From the IMG/VR virus record IMGVR_UViG_3300047586_000068, positions 1 through 24,714 of that record: a stretch of 24,714 bases of DNA; one strand, 5' to 3'. The number at the start of each line of letters is the position of its first letter. The stretch's first letter is position 1. Below the pieces are notes generated by a model. The model was not told the origin of the DNA. It did not search any database and was given only the letters and a program-made list of their open reading frames with translations. The stretch is from a virus. Shown here in pieces: positions 214 to 23,105 of the stretch. The translations under genes and the position numbers were made by a program.

Positions 214-263
214 GAACGCACACACGCAAGCCAGCGCCGACGCGCAGGCGGGAGGGGCGCTGA
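210..263 (+). CDS. tiny basic ORF (17 aa) bridging two genes
   Basis: The ATG at 210 overlaps the upstream stop (ATGA), and its own TGA at 261-263 shares a base with the ATG of the exonuclease gene (TGATG). It encodes MRTHTRKPAPTRRREGR, which is strongly basic. It may be a real micro-protein or only a coupling segment that carries ribosomes to the next gene. The purine-rich GGGAGGGG near 250-257 is the ribosome binding site of the exonuclease and lies inside this ORF. There is no homology evidence. Confidence 0.3.
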   Translation: MRTHTRKPAPTRRREGR

Positions 264-1225
264 TGGAGACCCAAGACGTTCAGCTTGTGAAGTACGACAG
301 TCGCGAAGAGTGGCTGGCCGCCCGCACGGCATCGATCGGTGCCAGCGAGTCGGCCGCACTGTTCGGCCTTGCGCCAGAAGGCCGTGAATCAGAGTTCAGC
401 CTATGGGCAAAAAAGGCCGGCATGGTTGAGCCAGAGCAGATCGACGAGGAATGGCTGTTCTGGGGCGCGGCACTCGAGCAGCCGATTGCCGACCGTTACG
501 CCAAGCGAACTGGCCACAAACTCTGGACGCCACCCAATGCGTTCTGCGTGGCAGTCCACCCGCGCCTGCCGTTCCTGACCGCAACCATCGACCGATGGAT
601 CATCGAGGCAGCCGGGCGCACCGAGCGCGGAGACCTGGAGATCAAGAACGTCGGAGCCTTCAACGCTGATTGGCGGGAGGATGGCGCCGCCGCCCTGCCG
701 CTCTACGTACAGGCGCAGGTGCAGCATCAGCTCGCCGTGACGGGGTTCGGGTGGGCCGTGGTCGCGGCACTCGTCGGCGGCAACAAGCTGGAGACCTTCG
801 AGATCGAGCGGAACCCGGAATTCATCGCCGAGCTCGAAGCGAAGGCCGAGGAGTTCTGGGGCAAGGTGCAGCGCAAGGAAGCGCCGCCAGCCGACGGGAA
901 GACCGCTACCACCAAGGCTCTCAAACGTCTCCACCCGGATGACAATGGCGAGACGATGGAACTCGACGCCGCTGCGGTAGAGCTGGCCGCAGAGCTCGAA
1001 GCAGCCAAGGCATGGAAGAAGGCTGGTGAAGACGCGGCCGAGGAAGCTGGCAACAAGCTGCGCGCCATCCTCGGAGCCAACACGTACGGCGCCCTGCCGG
1101 ACGGCCGGGTCGTTTCGCTCAAGACGACAGAAACCAAGGGCTACACCTGCGTGGTCGAGCCCAAGAAATATCGAACACTCAAGATCCTCAAGGCGAAGGC
1201 CGCAACGAAAGGAAAGAAATCATGA
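263..1225 (+). CDS. YqaJ-family phage recombination exonuclease
   Basis: A 320-residue protein with the YqaJ viral recombinase fold (lambda-exonuclease-like PD-(D/E)XK). Visible hallmarks are an early R-x3-IGASE segment (residues 21-29), GAALE (E72) and the catalytic core TIDR (D110) with LEIK (E126-x-K128). The Q150/Q154-H155-Q156 helix follows the core, as expected. Family members degrade one strand of double-stranded DNA to make single strands for an annealing protein. The C-terminal third (about 205-320) is helical and charged and may be an accessory domain. The start is an ATG with GGGAGGGG just upstream. The next gene, overlapping by ATGA, is the candidate annealing partner, which is the normal exonuclease/annealase order. 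Confidence 0.93.
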   Translation: METQDVQLVKYDSREEWLAARTASIGASESAALFGLAPEGRESEFSLWAKKAGMVEPEQIDEEWLFWGAALEQPIADRYAKRTGHKLWTPPNAFCVAVHPRLPFLTATIDRWIIEAAGRTERGDLEIKNVGAFNADWREDGAAALPLYVQAQVQHQLAVTGFGWAVVAALVGGNKLETFEIERNPEFIAELEAKAEEFWGKVQRKEAPPADGKTATTKALKRLHPDDNGETMELDAAAVELAAELEAAKAWKKAGEDAAEEAGNKLRAILGANTYGALPDGRVVSLKTTETKGYTCVVEPKKYRTLKILKAKAATKGKKS

Positions 1226-2280
1226 CCGACAAGACCCAGGAGATGGTGCGAGTTCCCCAGGCCGGCGAGCTGGCGCGTGAAGAGTTCGGCGCGAACTCCA
1301 TTGAGAAGCGCGGAGAACTTGCCGACCGCGCCCTGGCCAAGCAGGCAGAAGCGCAGGTGCAGGCCCGCTATCTCATGGCGATGAAAAACCCGCGGGACAT
1401 GATGGAGGCTCGTGAGCGGTTGTTGCGTGACTGCTCTCGCCCGGTGTTCGCGCGCAAGGCGATCTACAAGAAGCCCGTCGGCAAGGGCGTCGAGGGTCCG
1501 TCAATCCGGCTGGCCGAGGCCGCTGCTCGCGCCATGACCAACATCATCACCGACGTCATGGCGGTGTACGATGACACGCAGAAGCGGATCATTCGCGTGA
1601 TGGCCAGTGACCTGGAGGCCAACATCACGTTCACCAAGGACGTGACGGTCCACAAGGCGGTCGAGCGGTCGAACGCCACCGGCCGCAAGGTCATCAGCTC
1701 GCGGACCAATTCCAACGGACAGTTGACCTACTTGGTCGAGGCCACGGACGACGAGATCGCCGACCGCGAGAACGCGCTGGCGTCGAAGGCGATCCGCGGC
1801 TGCCTGCTGCGGCTCACCCCTGGCGACATCCTCGAAGAGGCGATCCAGCGCTGCTACGAGACCATGCTCAAGAAGGACGCCGAGGACCCGGACGGCGCGC
1901 GCAAGGAAATGTGCGACGCATTCGCCGACATCGGGGTGACGGTCGAGCAGATCGCCAGCTACCTCGGCCACCCGCTCGATCAAACGGTGGAGCCAAAGGA
2001 GATGAAGGACCTGCGTGGCATCTACAACGCCATCAAGGACGGAGAGGCCACGTGGTCGGAAGCCCTCGCGGCGCGCGCTCCATCCCAACAGAAGCCAGGG
2101 GAGGGAAAGACCCCGGCCCCAGACACTAAGCCAGCGACACTCGCCGATGCTGCTGCCAAGTCGAAGGCGTCACGCGAGAAAGCCCCGGAGGCCGCACCCG
2201 AGAAGCAGCCCGTGGTCAAGCTTGAAGGCACGGACGGCAAGCAGATGGAACTCGGGAGAACACCGGGAGAGGAGGGCTGA
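1222..2280 (+). CDS. putative single-strand annealing protein (RecT/ERF-like role)
   Basis: A 352-residue protein starting in an ATGA overlap with the exonuclease. The central region (about 50-215) looks like one conserved domain: YLMAMKNPRDMMEARERLL, then a CSRPVFARKAIYKKPVGKG segment, a GPSIRLAEAAARA helix, several beta strands (VMAVYDD, IIRVMASDLEA) and SKAIRGCLLRLTPGDILEEA. The last 80 residues are rich in Ala, Lys and Pro and look disordered, which is usual for annealing proteins. I recognise it as a common phage protein beside YqaJ or Rad50-like genes. Assignment to a named annealase family is inference from position. It would coat the single strand made by the exonuclease and pair it with homologous DNA. 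Confidence 0.65.
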   Translation: MTDKTQEMVRVPQAGELAREEFGANSIEKRGELADRALAKQAEAQVQARYLMAMKNPRDMMEARERLLRDCSRPVFARKAIYKKPVGKGVEGPSIRLAEAAARAMTNIITDVMAVYDDTQKRIIRVMASDLEANITFTKDVTVHKAVERSNATGRKVISSRTNSNGQLTYLVEATDDEIADRENALASKAIRGCLLRLTPGDILEEAIQRCYETMLKKDAEDPDGARKEMCDAFADIGVTVEQIASYLGHPLDQTVEPKEMKDLRGIYNAIKDGEATWSEALAARAPSQQKPGEGKTPAPDTKPATLADAAAKSKASREKAPEAAPEKQPVVKLEGTDGKQMELGRTPGEEG

Positions 2281-2285
2281 CCACC

Positions 2286-3584
2286 ATGACCAAGCTCATC
2301 GAGTTCCGCGCCGAGAACACCCGTGTCTTGAAAGCCGTCCGCATCACCCCCGACGGCAACATGGTCATTCTCGGCGGAAGAAACGGTTCTGGAAAAACGA
2401 CTGTGCTCGACGACATCGAGCTGCTGTTCGCCGGCGCCGGTAGCGACAAGATGCCGGCCGTGCCCATCCGCACCGGCCAGACCTCGGGCCGCACCTCGGG
2501 CAAGCTCTCCAACGGCATCACGCTGGAGCGCGAGTGGTCCGCGACGGGCACGCGCCTCATCGCCCGCGATGCCGACGGCAAGAAGTTGCCGGGCGGCCCC
2601 CAGGCCGTCGCCGACAAGTTCTATTCGTCAGTGGCGTTCGACCCGCTCGAATTCGCCGACAAGATGGAGCCCAGGAGACAGGCCGAGGTGCTACGCAAGC
2701 TCGTGGGCCTCGACTTTGCCGAGCTGGATGCCAAGCGCGCCAGCATCTACGCCGAGCGCGAGGACGGCGGGCGCGACTTGAACCGGCGCAAGGGACAGCT
2801 CGCGACCATGCCAGAAGTTCCGGGCGCACCCGACGCCGAGGTGAGTGTCGCCGAGCTCGTACAAGAGAAGGACGCGGCCGAGGCGCACAACCGCAACAAC
2901 CAGAGGGTGCGTGGCGCCTACGTTGCCGCCCAGGAAGCCGAGCAACGCGCCAGCATCGCGGTATCGAAGGCCAAGGCCGCCCTGGAAGAGTCGGAGAGGC
3001 AGCACGCCGAAGCGCGCGCCAAGACGCTCACCGCTGCCAACGCGATGGAGGCACTGAAGGACAAGGAGACCACCCCGCTTATCGAGCGCATCAAGGGGGC
3101 CGAGGACATCAACCGGACTGTGCGGGCTCGCAAGGAACGGGAGAAGGTGGCGACCGATGTCGACCGCATGGAGTCCGAGCGCCGCGCCCTCACGGCCAAG
3201 CTCGAAGCCATCGACGCCGAGAAGGCCAAGGCGCTGGCCGAGGCGAAGTGGCCAGTCGATGGACTCGGGTTCAGCGGCGACGGCGTGACCTACCAGGGCC
3301 TGCCGTTCGCCCAGGCGAGCAAGGCGCAGCGGTACGGGGTCAGCGTGGCGATCGGCGCCATGCTCAACCCGGAGTTGCCCGTGATGCTCATTCGGGACGC
3401 CAGCGCGCTCGACGAGGACGCCATGGCGTTGCTTGCCAAGCTGGCCGAGGAGAAGGGCCAGCAGCTCTGGATTGAGAGGGTCGGCAAGAATGACGTGGGC
3501 GCCATCATCCTGGAGGACGGCGAGGTTGCTGGCGTGGTGACGGAGCCGGGCAAGGTGGGGCCCATCGAGACCGCGGGGAAGTAG
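2286..3584 (+). CDS. SMC/Rad50-like AAA ATPase
   Basis: A 432-residue ABC-type ATPase. Residues 30-38 (GGRNGSGKT) are a clear Walker A motif. A long alanine- and glutamate-rich coiled coil spans roughly 146-316. The C-terminal lobe has VTYQGLPFAQASKAQR, occupying the place of the ABC signature, and a degenerate Walker B near 364-373 (LPVMLIRDAS) followed by LDED. The short coil suits the mini-Rad50/RecF-like ATPases that phages carry beside exonuclease and annealase genes. It probably helps end processing, although no SbcD-type nuclease is adjacent. The ATG lies five bases after the previous stop, with GAGAGGAGG upstream. A related C-terminal lobe without Walker A is fused to another gene at 5739-6926. 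Confidence 0.85.
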   Translation: MTKLIEFRAENTRVLKAVRITPDGNMVILGGRNGSGKTTVLDDIELLFAGAGSDKMPAVPIRTGQTSGRTSGKLSNGITLEREWSATGTRLIARDADGKKLPGGPQAVADKFYSSVAFDPLEFADKMEPRRQAEVLRKLVGLDFAELDAKRASIYAEREDGGRDLNRRKGQLATMPEVPGAPDAEVSVAELVQEKDAAEAHNRNNQRVRGAYVAAQEAEQRASIAVSKAKAALEESERQHAEARAKTLTAANAMEALKDKETTPLIERIKGAEDINRTVRARKEREKVATDVDRMESERRALTAKLEAIDAEKAKALAEAKWPVDGLGFSGDGVTYQGLPFAQASKAQRYGVSVAIGAMLNPELPVMLIRDASALDEDAMALLAKLAEEKGQQLWIERVGKNDVGAIILEDGEVAGVVTEPGKVGPIETAGK

Positions 3585-5637: not shown

Positions 5638-5739
5638 ATGCATCCTCGACACACGAGATCGACCGCGTACCCCACCCCGGTGGTCCTAAGCAGCTATTGG
5701 GTGCAGGAGTGCGCGGCCGTTCTGGGGGGTCGAGGCTAG
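5638..5739 (+). CDS. small ORF (33 aa) leading the replication block
   Basis: The ATG at 5638 is preceded by TTAGGATCACC, a reasonable ribosome binding site. The TAG at 5737-5739 shares its last base with the GTG start of the next gene (TAGTG). The product starts MHPRHTRSTAYPTPVVLSSY and ends ECAAVLGGRG. It could be a leader peptide coupling translation to the downstream gene. I recognise no family. Confidence 0.4.
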   Translation: MHPRHTRSTAYPTPVVLSSYWVQECAAVLGGRG

Positions 5740-6926
5740 TGCGCTGGGAAGACGAGCCATGGGTGAAGCTCTACACCCGAGACACCCTCGACTGGGACGC
5801 GCTTGGGTGGGAGGCGCAGGCGGTTTGGTTTTTCGTCTTCAAGAAGCTCGACACGGCCGGGATCCTCGACCTTGGCAGGAAGGGAACCAAGGGGTTCGCC
5901 GCTGCCCTTGGGATGCCGTTCGATCTGTTCGGACGGGCACTCGCAACCCTGCTTGAGGATGGCTGCCTAGTGCTCCGTGGGAACGTGCTGGTGATGCCAA
6001 ACTATGTCGAGGCGCAGCAGGCGAGAAAGTCTGACAGACAGCGGCAGCGGGATTCGCGTTCAAGGGCAAGGGACGCGGCATTGTCACAGAAAGTGACAGA
6101 AGATGGCGGGCACGTCACGCCAACGCAGTTGCCGTCACGGGAACGCGATGGCCGTCACGTGAGCACTGCGACAGTGCCAGAAGAGAAGAGAGGAGAAGAG
6201 ATCTCTCGTGATCTTTCCTTTTCACTCTCAGCTCCGGATCCGGATCAGAGCAACCAGCGTGCCAAGACCGGGCACGACTGGCTGTGTTACTTCAACGCGC
6301 GATTCTTCCAGGTGCGCGGGAAGCAGCGCGGGTGCGCCTCGGACGCCAAAGCGTCTGCCGTCCTTGGCGACGCCCTAGCCGCGCAGCCAGAAGCCGCCAT
6401 CGAGTTCACCCTGGACGGGGATGGCGATCCCATCGCAGTTCAGGTCGCCGGCGCCGAGCAAGCCCTCGGGGAGGCCAAGGTCGCGGTCACGGAGGCCGAG
6501 CGCGGCGCCGAGCTGGCCAAGACCCGCCTGGAGCACACCGATGCCAAGGCGGCCGTCGAGCGCGGCGAGGCCGAGGCCGAGCGGCTGGACGCCATCGTCA
6601 ACCGGCTGACCAAGGACGCGCCGGCAGAGCTGGCCAAGCGGTCCAACCTCATCCCGGGCCTGGAGCTCACCCCGACCACCATCACCCTGGACGGCACGCC
6701 ACTTGACAGCCGGAGCGGCAAAGAGCAGATGTTCTTCGCGGTGGAGCTGGCCAAGCGCATGAACGCCCGCTCTCGGATCTTGATCGTGGACGACCTCCAG
6801 GATCTCGACCCGGACCAGCAGCCCGAGTTCATCAAGATGGCCCGCGAAGGCGGCTGGCAGCTCATCGGCTCTCTCGTCGCCCGCGGCGACCTGGCGGTCA
6901 TCGGCCTCAAGGACGAGGCAGAGTAG
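5739..6926 (+). CDS. chimeric protein: phage replication-type N-terminus fused to SMC-like ATPase C-lobe
   Basis: With the GTG at 5739 (TAGTG overlap) the protein is 395 residues; an in-frame TTG at 5697 would add 14. Residues 1-90 (VRWEDEPWVKLYTRDTLDW, then GLGMPFDLFGRALATLLEDG-like text and LVMPNYVEAQQARKSDRQR) resemble N-terminal winged-helix domains of phage replication proteins. Residues 175-215 (HDWLCYFNARFF, DAKASAVLGDALAAQPEA) fit the start of such a protein's C-terminal domain. From about residue 220 (nt ~6395) the text changes to ATPase sequence: FTLDGDGDPIAVQV, a coiled coil at 237-300, an ABC-signature-like SRSGKEQ (324-330) and a Walker B ILIVDDLQDLD (347-357). There is no Walker A. 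It looks like an in-frame fusion of two genes. Function is uncertain; the N-terminal DNA-binding part may still work. Confidence 0.75.
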   Translation: MRWEDEPWVKLYTRDTLDWDALGWEAQAVWFFVFKKLDTAGILDLGRKGTKGFAAALGMPFDLFGRALATLLEDGCLVLRGNVLVMPNYVEAQQARKSDRQRQRDSRSRARDAALSQKVTEDGGHVTPTQLPSRERDGRHVSTATVPEEKRGEEISRDLSFSLSAPDPDQSNQRAKTGHDWLCYFNARFFQVRGKQRGCASDAKASAVLGDALAAQPEAAIEFTLDGDGDPIAVQVAGAEQALGEAKVAVTEAERGAELAKTRLEHTDAKAAVERGEAEAERLDAIVNRLTKDAPAELAKRSNLIPGLELTPTTITLDGTPLDSRSGKEQMFFAVELAKRMNARSRILIVDDLQDLDPDQQPEFIKMAREGGWQLIGSLVARGDLAVIGLKDEAE

Positions 6927-7008: not shown

Positions 7009-7461
7009 ATGAAAGCCATTACCTTCCACCACCCATTCCCCTGGGCCATCGTGAACGGCAAGCCGGTCGAGAACCGGGGCTGGGAGCCTCCCGACAACCA
7101 GCTCCGCCCTGGCGACTGGCTTGCCTTCCACGGCGGCAAGTTCCCGACCGGGATAGCTCTGGCCGAGGCCGCGACGGACTACCAGTGGATCATCGACCGC
7201 GGGCTGCTCAAGCCGGCCGGCGGTCTGCTGAGCCAGTTGATCTCGCCCTACGCTAGCGCCATCTTTGCCGTGGTCCACTACACCGGCGTGGTCACGAAGC
7301 ACGACAGCCGGTGGTTCTTCGGACCCTTCGGGTGGTGCTGGGACAAGATCATCATCCTGCCCACGCCGGTGCCGTGCCGAGGAGCACAGAAGCTGTGGGA
7401 TGTCCCGGCCGATGTGCTCGACAAGATGCGAGCGCAGTTCAGGAAGTCCGATGGCCGGTGA
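7009..7461 (+). CDS. ASCH-domain protein
   Basis: A 150-residue protein with an ATG preceded by AAGGTGAACC. It begins MKAITFHHPFPWAIVNGKP and continues VENRGWEPP, a GDWLAFHGGKF strand, AIFAVVHYTGVV and a WDKIIILPTPVPCRGAQKLW segment. This is the ASCH beta-barrel pattern (PUA-related), including the early 'Q/HPW/FA..I..G.K..E.R.W' signature. ASCH proteins bind RNA or modified nucleosides, and some are N4-acetylcytidine amidohydrolases. Which activity applies here cannot be told. The gap at 6927-7008 before it holds only a TTGACC without a good -10. It overlaps the next gene by 11 bases. Confidence 0.88.
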   Translation: MKAITFHHPFPWAIVNGKPVENRGWEPPDNQLRPGDWLAFHGGKFPTGIALAEAATDYQWIIDRGLLKPAGGLLSQLISPYASAIFAVVHYTGVVTKHDSRWFFGPFGWCWDKIIILPTPVPCRGAQKLWDVPADVLDKMRAQFRKSDGR

Positions 7462-8296: not shown

Positions 8297-8725
8297 ATGG
8301 ACTACTCCAAGTTGCTCAAGGATATACGCTGGCAAAAGAAGCGCCTAGAAACCCTTAAGGATGCCGGGTGGAAATGCGAGTTGCTGGGAGAAACCGGAGA
8401 TGGCGTTTCATTGAACGTGCATCACCGACGATACGTAGACGGGGCGATGCCTTGGCAGTACGAACGCGCCGATCTGCTTGTGTTGTGCGACGAATGCCAT
8501 GCGGATTGGCATGAATGGAAAAGGAATCGCAGTACACCATGGTGGATCTCTAGTTGGCGCGAGAAGATGTACGACTCTCTCATGGACTACAAGATCCCAT
8601 ACACGGACGGTAGCTGGGAATGGCAAGATGGACTGGACGAAGGAGACCGGCGTGTATGCTTTCGTCTTGAAAGAAAGTTTGATCGTTTCAAGAAGTTCGC
8701 TTCCGGCGAGGTCAACCTGTCGTGA
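8297..8725 (+). CDS. HNH endonuclease-like protein
   Basis: A 142-residue protein starting at ATG 8297 (MDYSKLLKDIRWQKKRLE). It has one zinc-bound HNH core: C27 in GWKCELLG, HH at 42-43 (LNVHHRRYVDGAMPWQY), and LLVLCDECHADWH (C64, C67, H68, H72). This is the form seen in many freestanding phage HNH proteins, which nick or cut DNA. The C-terminal 70 residues are charged and aromatic and are not recognised. Its gene is in the lower-GC island and its stop overlaps the GTG start of the replication gene, so it is embedded in the replication operon. Confidence 0.82.
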   Translation: MDYSKLLKDIRWQKKRLETLKDAGWKCELLGETGDGVSLNVHHRRYVDGAMPWQYERADLLVLCDECHADWHEWKRNRSTPWWISSWREKMYDSLMDYKIPYTDGSWEWQDGLDEGDRRVCFRLERKFDRFKKFASGEVNLS

Positions 8726-9456
8726 GCTGGGTCAAGCTCGATGACCGCTACTTTAGCAACGGCAAGATCCGGCGTTGCACACCAGGAGCACGTCTGCTCC
8801 ACGTCGCTAGTATGTGCCACTGTGCGGCAGCCTTGAACGATGGCGAGTTCCCGGCCACCGACCTCCCTATGATTCAAGCCGCCGCGGGCATTCCCGATCC
8901 AGAGGCCGTCAATGAGCTCACCAACGGCGGGCTTTGGGATGCGCTTAGGTCAGGATCATGTAACGCTGTTACGGGATACAGGGTTCACGACTTCTTGGAG
9001 TACAACCCACCCGCCGCTCGCGTCCTGGCTGCTCGTAAGGCAACTGCAGAACGTGTTGCTAAGTGGCGAGAGTCACAAGGTAACGCTGTTACTAACGGCG
9101 TTACAAACGGCGTTAGTAACGGTGCCTGTAACACTGCTCCCCCGTCCCCCGTCCCCCGTCCCCTTCCCGAGCCCGTCCCCGCACCAAGAAAACGATCACC
9201 CGCTGCGCGGGTGGAGTCCGCGGCCTTCACCGAGTTTTGGATGGCCTACCCGCGCAAGGTGGCCAAGGGCGCAGCGGTCAAGGCGTGGCCAGGGGACGAA
9301 CACCTTCCCGCCATCCTCGCCGCCTTGGCCTGGCAAGCCAAGAACTGGACCGATCCGAAGTTCATTCCACACCCGGCGACCTACCTGAACCAGAGGCGAT
9401 GGGAAGACGAGCGGCAGACCAAACTAGGTGGCGCCGCCAACTACGGGAGGCTGTGA
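8722..9456 (+). CDS. phage replication initiator / helicase-loader-like protein
   Basis: A 244-residue protein with a GTG start in a GTGA overlap. Residues 1-95 (WVKLDDRYFSNGKIRRC, LLHVASMCHCA, GIPDPEAVNELTNGGLWD, GYRVHDFLEYNP) form a winged-helix domain typical of phage primosome proteins. Residues 118-160 are low-complexity: a TNGV-type repeat, then a Pro-rich linker. Residues 168-230 (AFTEFWMAYPRKVAKGAAVKAW, WIPHP-like ATYLNQRRWEDE) match the C-terminal domain of lambda-O/DnaD-like replication proteins that meets the helicase. The linker DNA carries iteron-like repeats, and the next gene is a DnaB helicase, so it probably binds the origin and loads DnaB. Confidence 0.85.
   Translation: MSWVKLDDRYFSNGKIRRCTPGARLLHVASMCHCAAALNDGEFPATDLPMIQAAAGIPDPEAVNELTNGGLWDALRSGSCNAVTGYRVHDFLEYNPPAARVLAARKATAERVAKWRESQGNAVTNGVTNGVSNGACNTAPPSPVPRPLPEPVPAPRKRSPAARVESAAFTEFWMAYPRKVAKGAAVKAWPGDEHLPAILAALAWQAKNWTDPKFIPHPATYLNQRRWEDERQTKLGGAANYGRL
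8960..9136. repeat. iteron-like repeats, candidate replication origin
   Basis: GTAACGCTGTTAC occurs at 8960-8972 and again at 9080-9092. The second copy is followed without gap by related dyads TAACGGCGTTA (9093-9103), AACGGCGTTA (9106-9115), GTAACGG (9116-9122) and GTAACAC (9128-9134). Each full copy is a palindrome (GTAAC...GTTAC or TAACG...CGTTA). They lie in the linker-coding part of the initiator gene and are followed by a C-rich strand-biased tract at about 9138-9182. This is the arrangement of the lambda origin inside gene O. Origin function is inferred. Confidence 0.6.
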
Positions 9457-9458
9457 CC

Positions 9459-10826
9459 ATGGACATCGAGCTGATCCCTCCGCATTTCCCAGAAGCCGAG
9501 CGCGCCGTCATTGGGTCCGCGCTGCTCTATGCTGACCGTGCCCTGGCGAACACCGCCGGGCTCAGGCACGACGAGTTCATGCTCACGAACCACCGGGACG
9601 CCTGGGAGGCGATACGGGCGGCAGAGCGCAAGCCGGGCGGCATCGTTGACGTGATCTCGGTGGGCGCCGAGGTGAAGGCGCTCGGGACAGAGCCACGCTT
9701 CGAACGTGGCTGGGGACCGTGGGCGGTAGACACAGCAAAGGCGGCCTGCCTCCCCGAGCAGGTGTCTCATTTTGCCGGCATGGTGCGCGAGGCGGCGGCA
9801 GCCAGGAAGCTGATCGCGCTGTGCGCGGAGTTGCAGGCCAGAGCCTACACCGGGACCCCGTGGCCAGAGCTGCTAGACCAGGCGCGCGCTGGCATCGGGG
9901 AGCTTGAGACGGCCGGTGCGGACAGCCTCACCCGCCACATTTACGAGCCCATGAAGGAGTTCGTCTACGAGCTGGACCAGCAACAACAGGGGATCAAGCC
10001 CGAGATCATCAGCACATCGATCGCCACGCTCGACGACGTTCTCGATGGGTTCGAGGGTGGGCAGCTTATTGTCGTGGCGGCCCGGCCCGGCAAAGGCAAG
10101 ACCGCCCTCGCCTGCAATATGGCGGCGGCAAACGCTCTCCGGTGTGTGCCGTGCCTGATCTTCTCGCTCGAAATGCGAATGCGCAAGCTGGCCCGCCGGA
10201 TGCTCATCTGGGCTACGAAGGTCACGGGGCGCGACATGGCCGGCGCAGACTTGGCTACCTGGAAGAAAATTCAGGCGGCGGCAGGCGACTTCGAGAATTC
10301 AACGCTCTGGCTGAATGACCGCACCATGCGGCTCGGGCAGATCGTCGCCGAAGCTTGCCGATGGCACGCGCGGCACGTTCGCGGCAAGAGCAAGCGCGCG
10401 ATCGTTTTCGTGGACTACGCGCAGCTCATCCGCGGCGCAGGCGTCAAGGGCGGGCACCGCGAGCAGGAGGTTGCCGCCATCTCGGGGGCCATGAAGGGGC
10501 TTGCCATGCACCTTGACGTCCCCGTGGTCCTACTCGCGCAGCTCAACCGAGAGTGCGAGAAGCGCGGCGGCGCTCCGCTGCTGTCCGACCTGCGCGAGTC
10601 GGGCGCCATCGAGCAGGATGCCGACATCGTGCTTTTCCCACACCGCGAGATCCCCGCCGAAGACCAGGCCATGCGCAACGAGGCCGGGCCGGCTGAGATC
10701 ATCGTAGCCAAGAACCGAGACGGCCGGATTGGCAGTGCGGCGGTGAAGTGGATCCCGGAGCTGATGACTTTCCATGCGGCGACAGATCCGAACGTGGCAG
10801 AGCCGCGAGATTGGAGCGACCGATGA
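9459..10826 (+). CDS. dnaB: replicative DNA helicase, DnaB family
   Basis: A 455-residue protein starting at ATG 9459 with GAGG nine bases upstream. The N-terminal domain (MDIELIPPHFPEAERAVIGS, residues about 8-150) is the DnaB primase-interacting domain. The RecA-like motor has Walker A ARPGKGKT (208-215), Walker B IVFVDYAQL (315-323) and the family signature DLRESGAIEQDAD (377-389). FSLEM (235-239) and AQLNRECEKR (360-369) are the other usual DnaB motifs. It unwinds the fork as a hexamer. The overlapping upstream loader-like gene and the candidate origin inside that gene complete an initiation module. Confidence 0.96.
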   Translation: MDIELIPPHFPEAERAVIGSALLYADRALANTAGLRHDEFMLTNHRDAWEAIRAAERKPGGIVDVISVGAEVKALGTEPRFERGWGPWAVDTAKAACLPEQVSHFAGMVREAAAARKLIALCAELQARAYTGTPWPELLDQARAGIGELETAGADSLTRHIYEPMKEFVYELDQQQQGIKPEIISTSIATLDDVLDGFEGGQLIVVAARPGKGKTALACNMAAANALRCVPCLIFSLEMRMRKLARRMLIWATKVTGRDMAGADLATWKKIQAAAGDFENSTLWLNDRTMRLGQIVAEACRWHARHVRGKSKRAIVFVDYAQLIRGAGVKGGHREQEVAAISGAMKGLAMHLDVPVVLLAQLNRECEKRGGAPLLSDLRESGAIEQDADIVLFPHREIPAEDQAMRNEAGPAEIIVAKNRDGRIGSAAVKWIPELMTFHAATDPNVAEPRDWSDR

Positions 10827-13815: not shown

Positions 13816-13865
13816 AAGGGCGCAAGATACAGGAGTCGCGAGTCCGAAAATGTGAGGAGGTCACC

Positions 13866-14396
13866 ATGAAAGCCCTGATCGCATCCATCGTACCCGAGAT
13901 ACTCGACCTGCTGACCCCGGTCCTCCTCGCCGTTTTCGGGTGGCTGAGCTGGCGCGCTGCCGGCTGGATCAACGCCTACACGAAGAACGCCAAGCTCAAG
14001 GGCATCCTTCTGCGCCTGGACGACGCCGTGTTTACCGCGGTCAGCGCGCTCGAGCAGACCGTCGTGGTCGCCGCGAAGACCGCCGCGAGCGATGGGCAGC
14101 TCACGAAGTCGGACGGCGCGGCCGTGAAAGCTGCGGCTCTCGCCGAGATCAAGTCACACCTCGGGCAGAAGGGCATCGCCGAGCTCCAGGCAATCCTCGG
14201 CGTGAAGCCGGAGGGCTTGGACTCGTTCCTATCGTCTCGCATCGAAGCCTCGGTTTTGCAGTTGCCCGTGCGAACGCAGGTGGCGGGCACGGGCGCCGTA
14301 TCGGTCCAGGTTTCATCCACCGAGGCCGAGACGCCAGTGCTACCCCTGGTCCCCAAGGACCTGGGCACCGCCAGCATCACGATCACCAAGGGCTAG
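13866..14396 (+). CDS. phage holin, LL-H family-like
   Basis: A 176-residue protein with a strong ribosome site (GAGGAGG, 13854-13860). Residues 9-33 (VPEILDLLTPVLLAVFGWLSWRAA within this span) form one transmembrane segment. A helical cytoplasmic part follows, with DDAVFTAVSALEQTVV, KTAASDGQLTKSDGAAVKAA and LGQKGIAELQAILG. The 'VxAVEQ...DGKLT...A' pattern is the LL-H holin signature. The protein would form membrane lesions that let endolysin reach peptidoglycan. The C-terminal 55 residues are Val- and Thr-rich and not typical of the shortest members. It opens the probable lysis region. Confidence 0.82.
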   Translation: MKALIASIVPEILDLLTPVLLAVFGWLSWRAAGWINAYTKNAKLKGILLRLDDAVFTAVSALEQTVVVAAKTAASDGQLTKSDGAAVKAAALAEIKSHLGQKGIAELQAILGVKPEGLDSFLSSRIEASVLQLPVRTQVAGTGAVSVQVSSTEAETPVLPLVPKDLGTASITITKG

Positions 14397-14399
14397 CCC

Positions 14400-14489
14400 G
14401 TGAAGCCCGCGCACACCATCGTCACGATTCTCATCGTAAGCGTGGTCGGCCTGTTGGCCTGCCTCGCCTTCCTTTTTCTAAGCCCTTGA
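14400..14489 (+). CDS. 29-aa single-pass membrane peptide
   Basis: A GTG at 14400, preceded by AAGGG in the end of the holin gene, opens a short frame: VKPAHTIVTILIVSVVGLLA and then CLAFLFLSP, stopping at TGA 14487-14489. It is almost entirely one hydrophobic helix. Position right after a holin suggests a holin accessory or antiholin-like peptide, by inference. The possibility that it is untranslated remains. Confidence 0.5.
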   Translation: MKPAHTIVTILIVSVVGLLACLAFLFLSP

Positions 14490-14514
14490 CGTTCTTGCCG
14501 TCCCGTGCTTCCAT
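14486..14514 (+). promoter_or_regulatory. weak promoter for the HNH-AP2 endonuclease
   Basis: TTGACG (14486-14491) matches the -35 consensus at 5 of 6 positions, and TTCCAT (14509-14514) matches the -10 at 3 of 6, with a 17-base spacer. The predicted start of RNA is at about 14521, exactly where the following inverted repeat begins. Moderate support only. Confidence 0.4.
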
Positions 14515-14519
14515 GGTCC

Positions 14520-14588
14520 TTGCGATGCTCAACAATTCTGCGATCCCCAGGTGGACCACGTGCCCCGCCCAACCGTTGGGCATCGCAA
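14520..14588 (+). promoter_or_regulatory. 14-bp leader stem-loop upstream of HNH-AP2 gene
   Basis: TTGCGATGCTCAAC (14520-14533) pairs with GTTGGGCATCGCAA (14575-14588) along 14 positions with one G-U pair. The loop is 41 bases. It fills much of the 14490-14641 gap and would form the very 5' end of the endonuclease mRNA if the promoter at 14486 is used. It could control translation or stability. The ribosome site of the gene (GGAGG at 14629-14633) is 40 bases downstream and not in the stem. Confidence 0.55.
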
Positions 14589-14641
14589 CTCATGCGGGCG
14601 AGCCGAGCGCGTGGCCCTCTTGGCGGTCGGAGGATGTGGCC

Positions 14642-15172
14642 ATGCGAGAAATCCCACTTACCCAAGGCAAGGTGGCGATCGTCGATGATGTGGACTTCGA
14701 GTCGCTGAATGAGCGCAAGTGGTTTGCGGCCCGGCGCCCGAACACGTTCTACGCCATGAGGAACGGGAGCCGACAAGGTGGAGGCCGTCGCGGTCCGCCA
14801 GAGTTGATGCACAGGGTGATTCTCGCGCGCAAGCTCGGGCGCGTTCTGGACCCCAGAGAGAAGCCGGACCACTGGAACGGCGACGGTCTTGATAATCAGC
14901 GCGACAATCTAAGACTAGCGACGCATGCACAGAACTGCCGTAATTGCCGGCGGCACGCGAACAACCTAGTGAGCCAGTATCTGGGCGTGGTCTGGCACAA
15001 GTGCACCAAGAAGTGGTGCACGCGAATTATGGTTAACCACAGGCAAGTCTACCTCGGCCTTTACCCCACCGAGATAGCCGCCGCCCAGGCCCGAGAGGTA
15101 TACATTGTCGCCCATCCCGAGCTGATGGCGCGTCCGAATTTTCCGCACCAACCACTGACACCCAACCCGTGA
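14642..15172 (+). CDS. HNH homing endonuclease with AP2 DNA-binding domain (copy 1)
   Basis: A 176-residue protein with an ATG preceded by GGAGG. It begins MREIPLTQGKVAIVDDVDFE, a common opening for this group. The HNH_3 core is MHRVILARKLGR, DHWNGDGLDNQRDNLRLAT and ends near residue 100. An AP2-type DNA-binding domain follows at about 115-165 (SQYLGVVWHKCTKKWCTRI, VYLGLYPTEIAAAQA), then the YIVAHPELMAR tail. Freestanding HNH-AP2 enzymes cut or nick DNA and spread by copying into the break. It interrupts the lysis region, has its own promoter-like sequence, and is paralogous to the gene at 22584 and the remnant at 13701. Confidence 0.93.
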   Translation: MREIPLTQGKVAIVDDVDFESLNERKWFAARRPNTFYAMRNGSRQGGGRRGPPELMHRVILARKLGRVLDPREKPDHWNGDGLDNQRDNLRLATHAQNCRNCRRHANNLVSQYLGVVWHKCTKKWCTRIMVNHRQVYLGLYPTEIAAAQAREVYIVAHPELMARPNFPHQPLTPNP

Positions 15173-22393: not shown

Positions 22394-22587
22394 CCCCCGC
22401 CCGCTCTCTCTCTCCCCGCGACAAGCTACTGATCGTGTTGGGCTACACGGCCAGGCTCGCCCTCTTCAAGGTCAGTCACCACGGCTACGCCCCATGGGAG
22501 TGGGAAAGAATTGTACGAAGCGAATTTGAGTTTCTATCCGACGTGAGGGGGTTGGCAGACGAGAACAGGATAGGAGAAAAGGCGTGA
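22390..22587 (+). CDS. small hypothetical protein
   Basis: A 65-residue protein in ATGA overlap. DKLLIVLGYTARLALFKVSH, then WEWERIVRSEFEFLSDV is helical, with a weakly hydrophobic first helix. Its end carries AGGAG (22572-22576), the ribosome site of the HNH-AP2 gene, and the stop overlaps that gene's GTG. No assigned function. Confidence 0.5.
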   Translation: MTPARSLSPRDKLLIVLGYTARLALFKVSHHGYAPWEWERIVRSEFEFLSDVRGLADENRIGEKA

Positions 22588-23105
22588 AAGAAATTCCACT
22601 CAGCCAAGGCAAAGTGGCCCTCGTTGACGATGAGGACTACGGACCGTTGACCGTGTTCAAGTGGCGCGCGTATCGGTGCCGGAACACGTTTTATACGCAG
22701 CGGACAGTGACTCGGCCAGACGGAGGAGAGACGACAGAACGAATGCATCGCGTAGTACTCGCGCGCAAGCTCGGCCGTGTGCTCGTCAAAGGAGAGGAAT
22801 GCGAGCACGAGAACGGCAACGGGCTCGACAATCGGAGCGACAACCTGCGCTCGGCGACGAAGTCGCAGAACCATCGGAACCGCCATCATCGCAAGGATAA
22901 CCTCTCAAGCCAATACCTTGGGGTTTACCGGGACAATCGCTACAAGAGGTGGTGTGCGCAAATTCAAGTTCCAGGCAAACATGTCCACCTCGGCAGCTAT
23001 GCAACTGAATTGGAGGCAGCCATCGCCCGAGAGTTGTACATCGCCGCTCATCCCGAGCTGATGGCTAGAAGCAACTTCGCAGAGGCGGCGAAGGCGCTGC
23101 CATGA
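22584..23105 (+). CDS. HNH homing endonuclease with AP2 DNA-binding domain (copy 2)
   Basis: A 173-residue protein with a GTG start in a GTGA overlap and AGGAG eight to twelve bases upstream. It is colinear with the gene at 14642: KEIPLSQGKVALVDDEDY, RMHRVVLARKLGRVL, ENGNGLDNRSDNLRSAT (HNH_3), then SQYLGVYRDNRYKRWCAQI with VHLGSYATELEAAIARE (AP2) and YIAAHPELMARSN. Unlike copy 1 it is embedded in an operon by overlaps at both ends, so it is expressed with its neighbours. It should recognise a DNA target through the AP2 domain and nick or cut through HNH. Confidence 0.92.
   Translation: MKEIPLSQGKVALVDDEDYGPLTVFKWRAYRCRNTFYTQRTVTRPDGGETTERMHRVVLARKLGRVLVKGEECEHENGNGLDNRSDNLRSATKSQNHRNRHHRKDNLSSQYLGVYRDNRYKRWCAQIQVPGKHVHLGSYATELEAAIARELYIAAHPELMARSNFAEAAKALP

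Follow-up and report, generated by a model that had tools for sequence, protein, structure and literature searches.

The stretch of viral DNA analyzed here (the window; a linear record of 24,714 bases from an uncultivated virus) carries on its plus strand an open reading frame (ORF) at positions 5739 to 6926 in which the front part of a replication initiator is joined, in frame, to the C-terminal half of a RecF/Rad50-like ATPase. An in-frame chimera of a replication protein and half an ATPase had been proposed at this place in a first-pass annotation of the sequence, and it was confirmed here, with separate, significant homologues for each half. The explanation that we favor, and to which we give about an even chance, is that the joint is real but probably useless, a scar left in the phage lineage by one illegitimate (non-homologous) joint. 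Real or artefact, the fused ORF does not speak for novel machinery of replication or repair.

The fused reading frame and its two halves

A single uninterrupted plus-strand frame spans positions 5739 to 6926, and both of its halves are open and show a strong coding signal. The frame extends further 5' to a TTG at position 5697, but the GTG at position 5739 was taken as the start because a relative of the protein, an initiator encoded on contig IMGVR_UViG_3300045973_000552 (here named L003), begins at the equivalent residue. The product has 395 amino acids. Comparison of its sequence with the PDB gave no match, and none of the NCBIfam and defence-system models matched it. When the halves were aligned separately, a check that had been suggested beforehand, the N-half led to the L003 initiator and the C-half to the ATPase family phrog_1499.

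Residues 1 to 156 of the product (positions 5739 to 6206, plus strand) are 65 to 67% identical to the start of this 270-amino-acid initiator (L003:8004-8813) and hold a winged-helix DNA-binding domain. In an AlphaFold2 model of the fusion, the winged helix lies at about residues 19 to 85, and a low-confidence section at residues 125 to 210 is followed by a long helix and an ATPase-like lobe; with a mean pLDDT of 65 and a pTM of 0.30, the model was used for its domain outlines alone. Foldseek searches with the model returned winged-helix regulators from the PDB, none below an E value of 0.001, and both phage replication-initiation proteins and Rad50/SbcC/SMC-type proteins from a viral library. 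The homology to L003 Rep, which reaches residue ~156, and the modeled winged helix support the earlier reading of the N terminus as a winged-helix replication protein. The C-terminal domain that L003 Rep has in common with a second initiator of the window (Rep2, described below) was not found in the fusion; this domain of L003 Rep matches Rep2 (E = 3e-7), not the fusion. Residues 165 to 222 have no significant homologue, the one weak match being to phrog_26653 (E = 0.016).

The ATPase C-lobe comprises residues 257 to 392 (positions 6507 to 6914, plus strand) and consists of a descending helix, a signature-like SRSGKEQ and a Walker-B-like VDDLQDLD, with no Walker A. Residues 259 to 388 match phrog_1499 at positions 287 to 417 of 427 (E = 3.7e-14), the C-half used alone matches the family with an E value of 6.1e-15 but at positions 286 to 417 only, and a profile built from 12 full-length ATPases matches residues 257 to 392. 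Both SRSGKEQ and RILIVDDLQDLD align with the phrog_1499 family. Walker A and the N-lobe are absent from the fused ORF, and a six-frame search found no trace of an N-lobe of this second ATPase elsewhere in the window; a split ATPase with its N-lobe encoded at another place in the window was rejected for this reason. The alignment and the six-frame search thus bear out the earlier description of a signature-like motif and a Walker B present with Walker A absent. When the N-lobe is missing, an SMC-type C-lobe would be expected neither to fold nor to bind ATP by itself, and the C-lobe of the fusion is predicted not to bind ATP alone.

Two further features of this region were observed. In most of the phrog_1499 members that were aligned, the Walker-B region has the form hhhIRDxSxLD; the subgroup around Pseudomonas phage Dolphis has VDG or VDD there, and the canonical DE pair is missing from this region of the aligned members. 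In addition, the model of the fusion places a hairpin of two strands at residues 221 to 236 (positions 6399 to 6446; IEFTLDGDGDPIAVQV); nothing comparable precedes the last helix in the model of the window's intact ATPase.

Position and composition of the joint

Homology to Rep ends at residue ~156 (nucleotide ~6206), and homology to the ATPase starts at residues 244 to 257 (nucleotides ~6468 to 6507). Within the fused ORF, third-position GC rises from 0.71 to 0.93, with the change point at nucleotide 6441. The joint was placed, with regard to the limits of homology as well, in the 2-lnL interval of this change, positions 6246 to 6480 (plus strand), an interval that includes the switch point of about 6395 named in the first-pass annotation. 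No permutation gave a change as strong (0/2000), and the LR of 16.5 compares with a maximum of 6.4 in five control genes from the same contig. Since the change is sharp at the joint and far weaker in the control genes, the two halves most likely have different histories.

There are no Ns at the joint. The tetranucleotide correlation was 0.42 to 0.56 across the joint and 0.37 to 0.44 within the right part. As tetranucleotide usage differs across the joint no more than it does within the right part, both modules fit similar hosts, and a join of phages from unlike hosts was rejected. The sole repeat of at least 13 bp in the joint region is a direct 13-bp repeat, TCACCCTGGACGG, at positions 6406 to 6418 and 6682 to 6694. 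It is probably due to chance, because both copies lie inside the ORF and both code for TLDG in frame, and a deletion between direct repeats, for which it is the sole candidate, was discarded.

Genes around the joint and in related phages

Left of the joint, in what we here call module A, are genes for a RecE-like/YqaJ exonuclease (263 to 1225, plus strand; phrog_434 and YqaJ), a phrog_3657 protein (1222 to 2280, plus strand) and an intact phrog_1499 ATPase, followed by small genes and the truncated Rep. The phrog_3657 gene is RecT-like by position and shares 65% identity with a gene from the corresponding neighborhood in an 82.8-kb record (here named L023); a single-sequence scan detected no relatives of it in IMG/VR. 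The intact RecF/Rad50-like ATPase (2286 to 3584, plus strand; 432 amino acids, Walker A GRNGSGKT) is full length and belongs, like the C-half of the fusion, to phrog_1499 (E = 1.5e-81), in agreement with the earlier annotation of a complete ATPase of related design. Its model (mean pLDDT, 81) has PDB fold matches to the heads of Smc5/6, Rad50, RecN and RecF, and this ATPase is ordinary. The C-half of the fusion is only ~25% identical to it and is nearer to the Dolphis subgroup, and a local duplication of the gene at 2286 as the source of the C-lobe was rejected on these grounds. One of the two readings offered beforehand, that a deletion fused two genes and left an orphan C-lobe, therefore stands in part: the fusion and the orphan lobe fit, but the arrangement looks like two phage modules meeting and not like a mere local deletion, and the lobe comes from a second ATPase of another subgroup instead of the one at 2286.

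Right of the joint are an ASCH-type gene directly 3' of the fusion (7009 to 7461, plus strand; phrog_3193, with a similar phage protein annotated as an ASCH domain), an HNH gene, Rep2, DnaB, a SNF2-type helicase and a methyltransferase. Rep2 (8722 to 9456, plus strand; phrog_2447, 9474 and 270) is a complete second replication initiator whose C-domain is common to L003 Rep, and it is adjoined by the DnaB-like replicative helicase (9453 to 10826, plus strand; phrog_19, E = 1.3e-79). Rep2 was not reported in the first-pass annotation and changes the reading of the locus, since the fusion is thus not the sole initiator of the phage. The position directly upstream of DnaB is occupied by Rep2, not by the fusion. 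In phage initiators, DNA-binding N-domains appear to be exchanged while a related C-domain is retained next to DnaB: L003 pairs the N-domain type that is orphaned in the window with a Rep2-like C-domain. Two HNH endonuclease genes of the window (13856 to 15169 and 22530 to 23102), ~8 kb apart, are 56% identical over 168 amino acids.

In L023, the genes for ATPase, RecE, RecT-like protein, Rep and DnaB are present in this order in one stretch, each once. Exactly one phrog_1499 gene, full length in all cases, was found in each of 13 related phage records (some of them near-duplicates), and the fusion was present in none of the 13. The usual phage order is recombination genes, ATPase, Rep and DnaB, and the window reads as two copies of this order joined once. 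No second fusion was detected in INPHARED, IMG/VR or GTDB at the sensitivity of these searches, the collection scans having used short peptide patterns by which distant relatives can be missed; no sister genomes with and without the joint were found. Full-length homologues of the same architecture in many phages, which would have marked the fusion as an ordinary family, were likewise not found in these scans, and an ordinary family was rejected on this basis.

Origin of the fusion and comparison with known systems

In the favored explanation, two related phage modules with similar gene order would have met by one illegitimate (non-homologous) joint, leaving the initiator gene of module A and entering the second half of the ATPase gene of a module B in frame. 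The product would be a truncated Rep followed by the C-lobe of a second ATPase. If made and stable, this protein would at most bind DNA via its winged helix, and it would lack the L003-type C-terminal domain that is presumed to hand over the helicase. Replication would be driven by Rep2 and DnaB, so that the fusion would be redundant, tolerated and probably young. A single joint between A and B accounts for the second Rep as well as for the additional half ATPase. A joint falls in frame by chance in about one of three cases. Against a scar, the frame remains intact to the natural C terminus of the ATPase and shows a strong coding bias, and this retention could mean function.

The same sequence would result if two co-occurring related phages had been joined in silico or by a chimeric DNA fragment, in which case the gene would be absent in nature. 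We regard such an assembly or library chimera as possible, though less probable than a joint made in vivo: the record is a linear contig of an uncultivated virus, its joint was found in no other record searched, and a join of two phages predicts this duplicated content just as well. In simulated viromes, chimeras made up <5% of contigs with a length of at least 10 kb (PMC5610896). The joint is free of Ns, shows no composition break between its sides and is in frame, all of which argues against a chimera; a long shared word that misleads the assembler would also not be expected between unrelated gene families. These weights, like the others given here, are a matter of judgement and not of computation.

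That the fusion is functional, with the winged helix bringing the ATPase C-lobe to the origin to pair with or inhibit the intact ATPase, or to compete with Rep2, we consider unlikely. In favor of such a role are the open frame, strongly coding on either side of the joint, the retained signature-like and Walker-B-like motifs, and the presence nearby of a gene for an intact phrog_1499 ATPase. However, no conserved homologue of the fusion was found, a complete Rep2 is present, and the C-lobe, lacking an N-lobe, would be expected neither to fold nor to bind ATP. A matched interface is also doubtful, as the lobe and the intact ATPase belong to different subgroups and share only ~25% identity. The second reading of the first-pass annotation, an ATPase half-site at the origin that pairs in trans, is without positive support: no relative with this architecture was found, the other family members found are all full length and single copy, and a complete initiator adjoins DnaB. 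Its specific form appears highly improbable: here the C-lobe, targeted to DNA by the predicted origin-binding winged helix, would act as a half-site and either modulate or poison the intact ATPase or else be a competitor of Rep2 at the origin. Least weight of all goes to an ordinary but rare, so far unsampled protein family with the fusion architecture. The scans with short peptide patterns could miss its distant members, but the halves differ in codon usage within one gene, a difference that should have been evened out in an old family, and every other phrog_1499 member found is full length.

A real joint would make the window a clear snapshot of phage mosaicism before selection has tidied the boundary: one point, inside two genes and in frame, with the duplicated flanking functions still there. 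In the case of an assembly error, the lesson would be that chimeric viral contigs can be flagged by duplicated modules combined with an abrupt change of codon usage within one ORF.

Compared with the phrog_1499 ATPases, such as Arthrobacter phage Mufasa8 gp42 and Pseudomonas phage Dolphis gp48, the C-half of the fusion aligns over the descending helix, the signature region, the Walker-B-like strand and the C terminus, whereas the ascending coil and the complete N-lobe, including Walker A, are missing. The fusion resembles the L003 initiator over the N-terminal ~155 residues at the identity given above; in contrast, the L003 initiator has a phrog_270-type C-terminal domain and sits directly before DnaB, and in the window this domain is missing from the fusion and carried by Rep2. 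Among the accepted models of phage mosaicism is illegitimate recombination with subsequent selection (PMC3233612). As in the mosaic joints of that comparison, relatedness in the window shifts abruptly at one point, and no homology was detected at the joint. Persisting mosaic boundaries, however, usually fall at gene or domain boundaries (PMC3233612), whereas the joint described here lies inside two genes and gives an in-frame protein.
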